Assembly (NCBI RefSeq): GCF_947503415.1
Contig: NZ_CANNDS010000002.1
Coordinates: 558,001 to 622,000, forward strand
Direction: 5' to 3'
DNA from: an uncultured Tateyamaria sp.
GTDB lineage: Bacteria; Pseudomonadota; Alphaproteobacteria; Rhodobacterales; Rhodobacteraceae
DNA: 64,000 nucleotides
The notes below the pieces were generated by a model that searched no databases, was not told where the DNA came from, and saw only the letters and a list, made by a program, of their open reading frames with translations. Positions 1,714-22,243 of the stretch are shown here, piece by piece; positions within the stretch are counted from its first letter, which is position 1; each line of letters begins with the position of its first letter. Made by a program: the position numbers and the translations under genes.

Positions 1714-2475
1714 ATGTCACACGCCATCCGCATCTTCACACACGCCGTATCGATGGTGTTCCGCGATCTCGGCGCCACACTCCGCGCGACATCCGTGGGC
1801 GTCATCCTGATCGCCCTGGCGTCCGCCCTTCTGATCGCCATTGCGCCCGGCCTTGCCAGCGGCGTCACGACGTTTGATGATCCGGAGGCGCTGGCGCAGA
1901 TTCCCAATTTCGGACTGGTGGTGCCAGCCTTCTTCCTTATGGCGATCGGGTATCTGGTCATGATCGCTGCATGGCACCGCTTCGTGCTGCTGCCCAACGA
2001 CCGTCGGGACGAAGGGTTCACACCCAACGCAGGCATCGTGCTGGGCTATCTGGGCCGCAGTATTCTGCTGGGCCTCGCTGTTGGGTTGCTGGCCATCCCC
2101 CTGTTCGTCGTGATCGGCATCGTTGGGGCGGGCGCAGGCGAAGTTGTCGCCAGCATTGTTGCCATTCCCCTGATCGCTTTGATGGGATGGCTCTTGCTGC
2201 GTTGGAGCCTGATCCTCCCCGCCTGCACCATCGGCCGAAAAATGACGTTCAAGGAAAGCTGGGAGGCGTCAAAGCCGCTGGCGGGCACGATCTTTGCCAT
2301 CATGATTATTCTGGCGGTGGTCGACTTTGCCCTGAACTTCGCCATGGCCGCAGTGATCACGGATAACGTCATCAGCGCCATCATCAGCATCATCGTGTCA
2401 GTGTTCTATGCACTGGTCAGCGCCAGCATCCTCACGACACTCTATGGCATCGCTGTCGAAGGGCGCGAGGTCTAG
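1714..2475 (+). CDS. Multi-pass membrane protein of unknown function
   Basis: A 253-aa, strongly hydrophobic protein with about six predicted membrane segments (roughly residues 30-55, 75-95, 110-130, 135-165, 195-215, 220-245), short loops and no recognised catalytic motif. I start at the ATG at 1714, which has GAGG seven bases upstream and gives MSHAIRIFTHAV; a longer frame reaches back to 1660 without a better ribosome site. The gene converges on and overlaps the Mrp gene by 4 bp. Function not recognised. Confidence 0.8.
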   Translation: MSHAIRIFTHAVSMVFRDLGATLRATSVGVILIALASALLIAIAPGLASGVTTFDDPEALAQIPNFGLVVPAFFLMAIGYLVMIAAWHRFVLLPNDRRDEGFTPNAGIVLGYLGRSILLGLAVGLLAIPLFVVIGIVGAGAGEVVASIVAIPLIALMGWLLLRWSLILPACTIGRKMTFKESWEASKPLAGTIFAIMIILAVVDFALNFAMAAVITDNVISAIISIIVSVFYALVSASILTTLYGIAVEGREV

Positions 2476-3542
2476 GCCATCCCGCCCTTCACCAACCCTT
2501 CGGCAATGCGGGCATAGGCGTCGGCCATCGGCCCTTCGCCCGCGGCCACCGGCGTGCCGCCATCGCCAGCCAACCGCGTTTCAAGATCAATCGGCAACGC
2601 GCCCAGCAGGGGCACACCCATTTTGTCGGCCTCTGCCGCCACGCCACCCTGACCAAATATCTCGTGTTGTGACCCGCAATCGGGGCACACAAACATCGAC
2701 ATGTTCTCGATCAATCCCAGCACAGGCGTCTTCAACGTCGCAAACATGTCCAGCGCCTTGCGCGCATCAATCAGCGCTACATCCTGCGGGGTGGACACAA
2801 CAATGGCACCCGTCAGTTCGGACTTGGTGCACAGGGTCAACTGAACGTCCCCTGTACCGGGGGGCAGATCGACAAGCAGAACATCCAGCTCGCCCCACTC
2901 CACCTGCCCCAGCATCTGCTGCAACGCGCCCATCAGCATTGGCCCGCGCCAAACCACGGCCTTGCCCTCTTCCATCATGAAGCCGATGGACATGAGCGTC
3001 ACACCATGGGCGTGCAGTGGAATGATGGTCTTGCCATCGGGTGACGCGGGGCGCTTGTTCACACCCATCATGCGGGGCTGACTTGGTCCGTATATATCAG
3101 CGTCCAGCAAACCGACCTTGCGGCCCTGCCTGGCCAAAGCCACGGCAAGGTTCGACGACACGGTCGACTTGCCCACCCCCCCCTTGCCCGACCCGATGGC
3201 CAGAATGCGCTGTACACCGCTTGGCTTGGTCGGGCCTTCCTGCGGCTTGGGGTGCCCGCCGATCTTCAGGCTCGGCGGGGCGGGCTTGGCGGCAGGGCCA
3301 TGGGCGGTCAGGGCGACACGCGCCTCTGCCACACCATCCAGATCGCGCACAAGCTGTTCGGCGGCGGCGCGAATGGGCTCCATCCGGGCGGCCATCTCGG
3401 GCGTGGGGGCCTCGATCACAAACTGCACGGCGCCATCATTCACCTGCACGGCGCGAATCAAATCGCGACTGACAAGATCCCCTCCGTCCGGCATCCCGAC
3501 ACGCGCCAACGCGTCCATGACATTTTGTTTCGTAATGGCCAT
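2472..3542 (-). CDS. apbC: Mrp/ApbC family iron-sulfur cluster carrier ATPase
   Basis: A 356-aa protein with an N-terminal MIP18/DUF59-like domain (about 1-80), a Pro/Lys-rich linker (82-108) and an Mrp/NBP35 P-loop domain. The deviant Walker A GKGGVGKS is at about 119-126, the DLPPGTGD motif near 225-232, and the Cys pair CPDC (Cys286, Cys289) that holds the transferable 4Fe-4S cluster is intact. Mrp proteins assemble or carry Fe-S clusters in the cytosol. The ATG at 3542 follows a GGGGAAA ribosome site; the longer frame to 3722 has none. Confidence 0.93.
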   Translation of the reverse strand: MAITKQNVMDALARVGMPDGGDLVSRDLIRAVQVNDGAVQFVIEAPTPEMAARMEPIRAAAEQLVRDLDGVAEARVALTAHGPAAKPAPPSLKIGGHPKPQEGPTKPSGVQRILAIGSGKGGVGKSTVSSNLAVALARQGRKVGLLDADIYGPSQPRMMGVNKRPASPDGKTIIPLHAHGVTLMSIGFMMEEGKAVVWRGPMLMGALQQMLGQVEWGELDVLLVDLPPGTGDVQLTLCTKSELTGAIVVSTPQDVALIDARKALDMFATLKTPVLGLIENMSMFVCPDCGSQHEIFGQGGVAAEADKMGVPLLGALPIDLETRLAGDGGTPVAAGEGPMADAYARIAEGLVKGGMA

Positions 3543-3705
3543 GCTCGATTTCCCCGCTTTATGGTTAAAGAAATGGCACAAAATTCGCGTCTTGCAAGAG
3601 CCGCCGACATGCCCCTGCGTAAACGCCGCATCGTTGTGCGCAATGCCCGACATTTCAACCAGAAGCCTATGCAATTGCTGCATGGCAGCATTGTCTCGGT
3701 ATCCA

Positions 3706-3733
3706 TTGTGCACCCGCAGCATTGGCTTATATT
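3706..3733 (+). promoter_or_regulatory. Candidate promoter for the DUF1127/CcsR-like operon
   Basis: TTGTGC at 3706-3711 and TATATT at 3728-3733 with a 16-nt spacer lie 34 nt before the DUF1127 start. In R. sphaeroides the equivalent operon is driven by RpoHI/RpoHII; I do not see a clear heat-shock-sigma match here, so sigma use is open. Confidence 0.35.
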
Positions 3734-3766: not shown

Positions 3767-3997
3767 ATGGCCTATTACAACAACGTAGCACAACGCAGCG
3801 ACCTGGTAGAACGTCTTCTGGGCTCCGTTGCACACGCATTCGAAGCCGCTGCAGAGCGTCGCGCCAAACAGCGCATCTACCGCAGCACGTTTAACGAGCT
3901 GAACGTTCTGTCGAACCGCGAACTGGCCGATCTGGGCCTGCACCGGTCCGAGCTGAAGCGCGTGGCTTGGGAATCTGCTTACGGCACAGCTGCCTGA
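3767..3997 (+). CDS. DUF1127 small RNA-binding protein (CcaF1-like)
   Basis: A 76-aa basic protein. The C-terminal half carries the DUF1127 signature (FNELNVLSNRELADLGLHRS). The ATG at 3767 is chosen because GAGGCA lies about 8 nt upstream and the start MAYYNNVAQR fits the family; the frame extends to 3722. In R. sphaeroides the DUF1127 protein CcaF1 is encoded just upstream of the CcsR sRNAs and is an RNA-binding protein acting in sRNA maturation and turnover. Here the stop is 17 nt before the first of six CcsR-like hairpins, so co-transcription and the same job are likely. Confidence 0.88.
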   Translation: MAYYNNVAQRSDLVERLLGSVAHAFEAAAERRAKQRIYRSTFNELNVLSNRELADLGLHRSELKRVAWESAYGTAA

Positions 3998-4014
3998 GCA
4001 CGGAACACACGGAT

Positions 4015-4047
4015 CAGATGGCCCTCTTCTCCTCCCTGGGGCATCTG
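4015..4047 (+). ncRNA. CcsR-like hairpin 1
   Basis: CAGATG (4015-4020) pairs with CATCTG (4042-4047), extended by CCC/GGG. The loop motif is TCTCCTCCC, one base off the consensus; this is the least canonical copy. Confidence 0.75.
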
Positions 4048-4053
4048 AAATTG

Positions 4054-4087
4054 GCGGCGGCGCCTTCCTCCTCCCTGGCGTCGCCGC
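4054..4087 (+). ncRNA. CcsR-like hairpin 2
   Basis: An 11-bp GC-rich stem (4054-4064 with 4077-4087, one G-U pair) closes a 12-nt loop containing CCTCCTCCC. Confidence 0.82.
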
Positions 4088-4106
4088 ACTTTTAACAACC
4101 GCGATA

Positions 4107-4146
4107 CATCGCTGACCGGTCTCTCCTCCTCCCTGACCGCGCGATG
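4107..4146 (+). ncRNA. CcsR-like hairpin 3
   Basis: Outer stem CATCGC/GCGATG (4107-4112, 4141-4146) and inner stem GGTC/GACC (4118-4121, 4135-4138) separated by an asymmetric internal loop. CCTCCTCCC is in the terminal loop. Confidence 0.8.
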
Positions 4147-4154
4147 TTGCAAGA

Positions 4155-4188
4155 GCGGCGGCATTCACCTCCTCCCGAATGTCGCCGC
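4155..4188 (+). ncRNA. CcsR-like hairpin 4
   Basis: A 12-bp stem (4155-4166 with 4177-4188, one G-U pair) and a 10-nt loop that is almost entirely the CCTCCTCCC motif; the most regular member. A plain GCACCA/TGGTGC hairpin without the motif follows at 4198-4211. Confidence 0.85.
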
Positions 4189-4222
4189 ACCAACACCGCA
4201 CCAGATGGTGCACCCGAAATGC

Positions 4223-4254
4223 CTGCTCCGGTCCTCCTCCTCCCTGACCGGCAG
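4223..4254 (+). ncRNA. CcsR-like hairpin 5
   Basis: CCGGTC (4228-4233) pairs with GACCGG (4246-4251), with an outer CTG/CAG pairing across a 2-nt bulge. The loop has an extended CCTCCTCCTCCC run. Confidence 0.8.
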
Positions 4255-4265
4255 ACATGAAGAAG

Positions 4266-4301
4266 ACGGCGGTCCCTCCTCCCTGGGTCCGCCGTTTTTT
4301 T
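4266..4301 (+). terminator. CcsR-like hairpin 6 acting as Rho-independent terminator
   Basis: ACGGCGG (4266-4272) pairs with CCGCCGT (4289-4295), with inner CCC/GGG, and is followed by seven T at 4295-4301. The loop again carries CCTCCTCCC, so the terminator of the operon is itself a motif copy. Confidence 0.88.
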
Positions 4302-22168: not shown

Positions 22169-22243
22169 GCGGGCGTAGCTCAGGGGTAGAGCATAACCTT
22201 GCCAAGGTTAGGGTCGGGCGTTCGAATCGCCTCGCCCGCTCCA
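22169..22243 (+). tRNA. tRNA-Gly(GCC)
   Basis: Full cloverleaf: acceptor GCGGGCG/CGCCCGC, D arm GCTC-AGGGGTAG-AGC, anticodon loop TTGCCAA (anticodon GCC) on stem TAACC/GGTTA, T arm with TTCGAAT, discriminator T and an encoded CCA (22241-22243). Confidence 0.97.

Follow-up and report, generated by a model that had tools for sequence, protein, structure and literature searches.

The window analysed here, a stretch of 64,000 nucleotides of an uncultured Tateyamaria sp., contains a gene for a CcaF1-like DUF1127 protein of 76 residues, which is followed on the same strand by an array of six hairpins and preceded by a bipartite promoter element (Table 1). A divergent gene for an mrp/ApbC-type P-loop NTPase on the other side of the promoter serves as a syntenic landmark: mrp is present in the fetched flank of 39 of 52 loci, with counts of 19 of 19 in the genus and 3 of 3 in Cereibacter/Luteovulum. 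The DUF1127 protein of the window is identical to the 71-residue protein of the equivalent locus of C. johrii at 32 of 63 aligned positions (51%), and the latter is equal in length to CcaF1, reported as 71 residues (PMC10253847). A search of NCBIfam with the DUF1127 protein returned no model up to an E-value of 1. At gathering thresholds, no Rfam family was found at the array locus or at five promoter-motif loci, the sole Rfam match in the window being a tRNA gene at 22169-22240. A MraZ-type protein (PF02381) is encoded on the minus strand at 496-1161. Three more DUF1127 genes lie elsewhere in the genome (C2:964528, C2:263096 and C3:330888), none of which coincides with a motif pair.

Table 1. 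Genes, promoter elements and hairpins of the DUF1127 locus, in window coordinates
Feature	Position	Strand	Remarks
mrp/ApbC-type P-loop NTPase gene (PF10609), divergent, syntenic landmark	2472..3542	-	326.2 bits; start 3542 picked from the domain match
Upstream promoter box TGCAATTGCTGCATGGCAGCATTG	3670..3693	+	TGCA-N6-GCAT (3670-3683) overlapping TGCATGGCAGCATTG (3679-3693)
Second promoter element TTGTGCACCCGCAGCAT	3706..3722	+	overlaps -35-like TTG
Putative -10-like TTATAT	3727..3732	+	by eye, aligned upstream regions
DUF1127 protein gene, 76 aa, CcaF1-like	3767..3997	+	PF06568, 40.3 bits (cut-off 23.3)
H1, first hairpin of module 1	4014..4048	+	loop TCTCCTCCC 4028-4036; 5 clear stem pairs in all 18 aligned genus loci
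H2, second hairpin of module 1	4054..4087	+	loop CCTCCTCCC 4067-4075; 11 pairs in all 18 aligned genus loci
H3, first hairpin of module 2	4101..4150	+	loop 4125-4133
H4, second hairpin of module 2	4155..4188	+	loop 4168-4176
Motif-free linker hairpin between modules 2 and 3	4198..4211	+	GCACC agat GGTGC
H5, first hairpin of module 3	4219..4258	+	loop 4236-4244
H6, second hairpin of module 3 and rho-independent terminator	4266..4301	+	loop 4275-4283; seven T at 4295-4301

The hairpin array and its modules

The six hairpins 3' of the DUF1127 gene present (C/T)CTCCTCCC in their loops, five of them as CCTCCTCCC (starting at 4067, 4125, 4168, 4236 and 4275) and one as TCTCCTCCC (starting at 4028), just as the initial annotation had described six stem-loops with one variant. 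There is no excess of the motif over the whole window, where 16 matches with up to one mismatch compare with 16.87 expected, and the genome contains 56 copies of CTCCTCCC against 71 of its reversal. Across the whole genome (4.87 Mb), the pair pattern CTCCTCCC-N20-50-CTCCTCCC has four occurrences, every one of them in the array, and its reversed control does not occur at all. It is the clustering of the motif and not its frequency that is the signal.

The fold of the 308-nt array has an energy of -134.4 kcal/mol (z -6.72), and none of 100 shuffles is equally low. Folded locally, with the motif forced to stay unpaired, the six hairpins have energies of -11.3 to -24.8 kcal/mol; of 8 control sites, taken from the 50 copies of CTCCTCCC in the rest of the genome, six give -2.0 to -7.8 kcal/mol and two give -12.7 and -17.3 kcal/mol. 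The stems had been described as different but compensated and, in agreement with this, the hairpins fold better with their own arms than with swapped arms in all three sets of loci, the mean energies being -19.33 against -10.07 kcal/mol in the genus (100 hairpins of 19 loci, the window's included), -19.84 against -9.48 kcal/mol in other genera (183 hairpins of 28 loci) and -20.04 against -12.28 kcal/mol in Cereibacter-type loci (29 hairpins). The number of hairpins with at least 7 spanning pairs separates own from swapped arms less well than energy does (100/100 against 368/500 in the genus and 183/183 against 740/915 in other genera). The alignment of module 1 covers 18 genus loci (all 19 except L045), and its count of 16 clear pairs excludes the two-register upper part of H1. 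All 288 cells of this alignment are paired, compared with 26-62% in slid controls, and 3 of the 16 pairs have changes on both sides (2 of the 11 in H2); the alignment of the last module was too gappy and was set aside. Loss of the stems in related genomes had been named beforehand as an outcome that would speak against the assignment, and the stems are kept.

The start-to-start spacings of CTCCTCCC in the window array are 39, 58, 43, 68 and 39 nt, that is, 39/43/39 nt within pairs and 58/68 nt between pairs. The 19 genus loci, the window's included, have spacings of either 39-44 nt (n=49) or 56-102 nt (n=32), and the 28 loci of other genera have spacings of 32-46 nt (n=90) and 47-113 nt (n=63) when divided at a cut of 46 nt that we chose; spacings are near-even in L019, L020 and L022, where the pairing of hairpins is less clear. 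A 5' arm of the CGGCG type (CGGCG, CGGTG, CGACG or CGGCA within 20 nt 5' of the motif) is found in second hairpins at 49/49 in the genus, 72/90 in other genera and 12/15 in Cereibacter-type loci, compared with 0/51, 22/93 and 5/14, respectively, of the remaining hairpins. The genus arrays differ by whole pairs, with four exact motifs in 6 of the 19 loci, five in 2 loci (a variant sixth stands behind both) and six in 11 loci. The bimodal spacing, the distinct arms of the second hairpins and the whole-pair differences together lead to the reading of the locus as three two-hairpin units.

The motif-free hairpin between modules 2 and 3 is present as claimed, and in the window organism it occurs in the longer linker only. 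It had been regarded as unusual, but it is regular in the genus, where all 23 linkers with a motif spacing of at least 60 nt contain a stem of at least 5 bp (5.9 expected from shuffles, 0.6 expected with an equally good stem; 9 shorter linkers fall outside this count), although the stems themselves differ, as in GCACC/GGTGC and GCATCT/AGATGC. Cereibacter-type linkers have such a stem in 6 of 11 cases against 4.2 expected, so that the linker hairpin is not established there. An energy test of the linker hairpins discriminates poorly beyond the genus, with 23/23 against 16.9 expected and, in Cereibacter-type linkers, 9/9 against 7.8.

Seven T directly follow the last hairpin, which is also the terminator, as proposed earlier. 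Its being a copy of the repeated unit had been considered unusual and proved ordinary: a T-run, taken as at least 4 T in the 45 nt that follow the final exact motif, is present at 17 of 19 genus loci, the other two ending in a variant motif hairpin that is then followed by a T-run, and in 26 of 29 groups elsewhere (missing in L011, L016 at a contig end, and L033). The corresponding count in Cereibacter/Luteovulum is 2 of 3.

Relatives of the locus

The closest likeness is to ccaF1-CcsR1-4 of Rhodobacter (Cereibacter) sphaeroides, with which the locus shares mrp, a divergent DUF1127 gene, two-hairpin modules with CCUCCUCCC loops and the promoter element. This likeness was checked in C. johrii, C. 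azotoformans and C. changlensis. A StsR probe reported in PMC11354728 led to records of Cereibacter changlensis, Luteovulum (Cereibacter) azotoformans and C. johrii, and C. johrii and C. azotoformans were used as stand-ins for R. sphaeroides, the array of strain 2.4.1 itself lying outside the loci compared. All 3 Cereibacter/Luteovulum loci have the order mrp-DUF1127-array. Behind these genes, the arrays of C. johrii and C. azotoformans comprise eight motif hairpins that form four pairs, and a C. johrii draft has the same four pairs split over two contigs. C. changlensis has 13 motif hairpins, corresponding to six pairs and one, and a genome whose locus matches that of C. johrii with 97.9% identity across 864 bases has 14 motifs in seven pairs. 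Three loci of the Cereibacter group, L112, L200 and L110, have 4, 7 and 6 modules, respectively, with one hairpin more in L110, and the modules are alike and about 114 nt long; such variation in the number of alike modules among Cereibacter relatives points to recombination between modules.

Most likely, to judge from the pairing of hairpins, one CcsR corresponds to one hairpin pair and the four CcsRs to four pairs. The array had been called expanded, and longer than that of R. sphaeroides, because six hairpins were set against four sRNAs; since the stand-ins have eight hairpins in four modules and the window has three modules, the window array is shorter, not expanded. The last copy also differs between the two, running into a T-run in the window and lacking one in C. 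johrii. Nor is a copy number of six unusual, the number of exact motifs per array in other genera ranging from 2 to 26 with a median of 6 (29 groups, 28 loci); this count comes from loci with about 1.5 kb of flank, in which long arrays and those at contig ends may be cut, and leaves out L017 and L028, which have pairs without DUF1127. An expansion in copy number was rejected on the basis of the 8 motifs of the stand-in arrays, the up to 13-14 motifs of the L110/L200 types and the median of 6 in other genera. The 26 motif hairpins of L019 (G165) are largely tandem near-identical three-hairpin repeats (spacings 47, 51, 42), which is a recent amplification, and one genome (G112; L172/L012) has, on a contig separate from that of its larger array, a second array of two motifs behind a DUF1127 gene.

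The motif pair is present in 246 of 295 family genomes and in 19 of 20 genus genomes, the organism's own included. A sample of the class contains it in 47 of 385 genomes, 5 of which belong to the same family; outside the family, it is found in 42 of 380 genomes, many of which have reversed-control matches too. Five out-of-family loci were inspected, and two further families proved to have two-hairpin loci with the loop motif.

The locus also resembles the cuckoo RNA family, or alpha-r14, of the Rhizobiales (NfeR1, SmelA075 and SmelA099), which is reported to have adjacent hairpins with CCUCCUCCC loops and variable stems (PMC3927594, PMC4504443, PMC10746234), and each two-hairpin module of the window shows this combination. 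The short DUF1127 gene directly upstream of the array is a further family character found here. There are differences as well. The cuckoo family is described with 2-4 hairpins, the helices of which lack sequence conservation (PMC4504443), whereas the window has six hairpins in one stretch, in three pairs, and the second hairpins share arm sequence. NfeR1 is reported to have its own promoter (PMC10746234), whereas the array of the window follows the DUF1127 gene. The locus is an operon of the ccaF1-CcsR (CIN1/cuckoo RNA) type, a known kind, and is ordinary in size and layout.

The promoter element and its candidate regulator

The promoter contains the bipartite element TGCA-N6-GCATRGCNGCATT followed by TTGTGCAnnnGCAGCA. 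TGCA-N6-GCAT is exact at 19/19 genus loci, the window's included, and at 25/30 family box loci, all 30 of which fit TGC(A/G)-N6-GCAT; as background, 38 of the 455 GCAT sites of these 30 loci, boxes included, have TGCA-N6 in front. The second part, TTGTGC followed by N3-5-GCAGCA, is found at 19/19 genus loci, 29/30 family box loci and 4/4 Cereibacter-type loci. The 19 genus loci have in common an upstream block, ATGCA-GCTGCAT(A/G)GC(A/G)GCATTG, in which a few bases separate ATGCA from GCTGCAT; ATTGTGCA-n-GCAGCAT comes after it. Of the 295 family genomes, 195 contain the pattern GCATRGCNGCAWT-N8-22-TTGTGC, in most cases a single time, and the reversed control is 0 in every row; the exact pattern is absent from the other 100. 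At 30 such loci, 25 of them from genomes that also yielded a motif-pair locus, the match is always 32 or 33 nt long, a loop motif lies within 600 nt downstream in 30/30 and at least two copies lie within 900 nt in 29/30. Outside the family, 5 of 380 genomes contain the pattern, with irregular lengths (27-39); as 3 of 385 genomes contain the reversed control, this is chance level. Two loci of a different alphaproteobacterial family in the class sample (L099 and L100, family f116) have two-hairpin loop motifs, a TGCA-N6-GCAT at a distance of 171-172 nt upstream of the first motif and a second block resembling GCA-n-CTGCA(A/G)CAT.

TGCA-N6-GCAT is reported as the LsrB site at nfeR1, where it lies upstream of the core promoter (PMC10746234). 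This published box is contained exactly in the window promoter, upstream of the -35-like element. The VtlR motif is reported as CAATGCAGCCATGCA, and VtlR is reported to activate abcR2 and three DUF1127 genes (PMC12595884); in A. tumefaciens, VtlR is an activator of abcR1, of vrsA and of atu1667, which encodes a small protein (PMC7486931). In reverse complement, the VtlR motif agrees with TGCATGGCAGCATTG in 14 of its 15 bases. The locus thus resembles the LsrB/VtlR regulon of the Rhizobiales (DUF1127 genes, AbcR sRNAs and NfeR1) in its target classes, its TGCA-N6-GCAT box and a near-identical VtlR motif. These likenesses suggest that a putative LysR-type activator binds the promoter box.

The element may instead belong to a regulator other than an LysR protein of the LsrB/VtlR type, or to an RpoHI/RpoHII promoter itself, and this alternative carries considerable weight, if somewhat less than even odds. 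The R. sphaeroides ccaF1 promoter is assigned to RpoHI/RpoHII (PMC10253847), and trxB has no adjoining LysR gene. The -35-like TTG and the -10-like TTATAT, spotted by eye in the alignment of upstream regions, do not assign the window promoter to a sigma class. The identity of TGCA-N6-GCAT to the LsrB site at nfeR1 (PMC10746234), the 14/15 match to the VtlR motif, the position of the box upstream of the -35-like element and the target classes shared with the Rhizobiales, DUF1127 genes and an anti-Shine-Dalgarno sRNA, argue against the alternative and in favour of an LsrB/VtlR-type activator. No LysR regulator of the R. sphaeroides ccaF1 promoter is mentioned in the parts of the literature covered, which assign RpoHI/RpoHII instead, and no title or abstract within this partial coverage states an LsrB/VtlR link for the Rhodobacter locus; no priority is claimed.

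Synteny with trxB led to no vtlR gene: vtlR is reported to lie beside trxB in A. tumefaciens (PMC7486931), whereas the window genome lacks the trxB-vtlR order, the trxB neighbourhood containing no LysR gene and being flanked, by eye, by an AsnC/Lrp-like ORF and an ORF resembling a ferredoxin-domain cyclase. Further LsrB/VtlR-like boxes were likewise rejected, as 4 of 5 genomic GCATRGCNGCAWTG sites lie deep inside long ORFs of a mechanical list whose ORFs also cross the window's own box.

Loop function and proposed mode of action

The loops had been proposed to be complementary to ribosome sites, and the genome agrees with this: GGGAGGA-N4-10-ATG occurs 119 times against 9 for the reversed control, with one of the sites antisense inside the array. 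The 119 complementary sites offer many possible partners for the loops and single out no target. In S. meliloti, the redundant CCUCCUCCC loops of NfeR1 are reported to silence ntrB by pairing at the translation start (PMC10746234), and flhR mRNA is the named target of CcsR in R. sphaeroides (PMC8307010). RNase E is reported to release CcsR1-4 from the transcript of ccaF1 (PMC8625941) and PNPase to turn them over (PMC7866481), CcsR1 has been co-purified with Hfq in a pull-down (PMC5036791), and processing into sRNAs is reported together with induction by oxidative stress (PMC10253847, PMC8625941, PMC7866481).

A DUF1127 gene was found by phmmer in 28 of the 30 loci fetched with the promoter pattern. 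L177 (G092) and L190 (G128), which belong to two genera, have none between the promoter element and the array by phmmer, suggesting that the array may persist where the protein gene is lost. Their first motif follows the promoter element after 185 nt and 117 nt, respectively. Salmonella YjiS, another DUF1127 protein, is reported not to bind RNA (PMC12501420). Given this and the two array loci lacking the gene, a role of the DUF1127 protein in maturation is not to be assumed.

The whole is best explained, with a probability of about 0.85, as a ccaF1-CcsR-type operon with three sRNA modules that silence mRNAs and a probable LysR-type switch. By this explanation, a single transcript would start at the conserved promoter, run through the DUF1127 gene and the three two-hairpin modules and end at the last hairpin. 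If processing follows the R. sphaeroides pattern, cleavage of the linkers by RNase E, perhaps with aid from the DUF1127 protein, would release three sRNAs, each offering two CCUCCUCCC anti-Shine-Dalgarno loops that may pair with GGGAGGAGG-like ribosome sites and so block the translation of a set of mRNAs. If the case of S. meliloti NfeR1 is a guide, the loops would be redundant and the number of modules would set the dose. An LysR-type activator of the LsrB/VtlR kind, acting at the upstream box, would probably switch transcription, and a stress sigma factor possibly acts alongside it. The initial annotation is thus partly supported: it was right in placing CcsR-like hairpins with anti-Shine-Dalgarno loops after a DUF1127 gene and in taking them for likely translational regulators, and wrong in calling the array expanded.

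A decoy function, in which the loops would be bulk mimics of the 16S tail that titrate ribosome sites or a Shine-Dalgarno-binding factor, so that copy number would matter and not pairing specificity, is unlikely: the constancy of the anti-Shine-Dalgarno core among varying stems, arrays of up to 26 motifs and the abundance of extended Shine-Dalgarno sites would all suit it, but arrays of two motifs exist, and the silencing of ntrB and the naming of flhR as a target (PMC10746234, PMC8307010) speak for specific pairing. That the hairpins are merely a stable repetitive 3' UTR and terminator protecting the DUF1127 mRNA, with a loop motif that has no partner, is highly improbable, for although the array stands directly behind the gene and ends in a terminator, the loop sequence is constant while the stems change, L177 and L190 have promoter and array without a DUF1127 gene that phmmer detects, and the R. 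sphaeroides RNAs are reported to be cut from their transcript and to target in trans (PMC10253847, PMC7866481, PMC8307010).

The locus illustrates the growth of such arrays by whole two-hairpin modules, the final module doubling as terminator. A wider hypothesis, to which we give a little under an even chance, is that an LsrB/VtlR-type LysR activator, possibly redox-sensing, runs the operon of DUF1127 and anti-Shine-Dalgarno RNAs throughout the family. The rhizobial LsrB-NfeR1/AbcR/DUF1127 and ccaF1-CcsR systems would then be one ancient regulon, in which two-hairpin modules gained or lost would tune the dose of the RNA output and some genera could dispense with the DUF1127 protein. The conserved promoter element is the part of the locus that deserves a second look. 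If its reading as an LsrB/VtlR-type site is true, studies of CcsR in R. sphaeroides would gain a candidate transcription factor, and the literatures on RpoH-driven CcsR, LsrB-driven NfeR1 and VtlR-driven DUF1127 genes, treated apart so far in the sources covered, would be joined.
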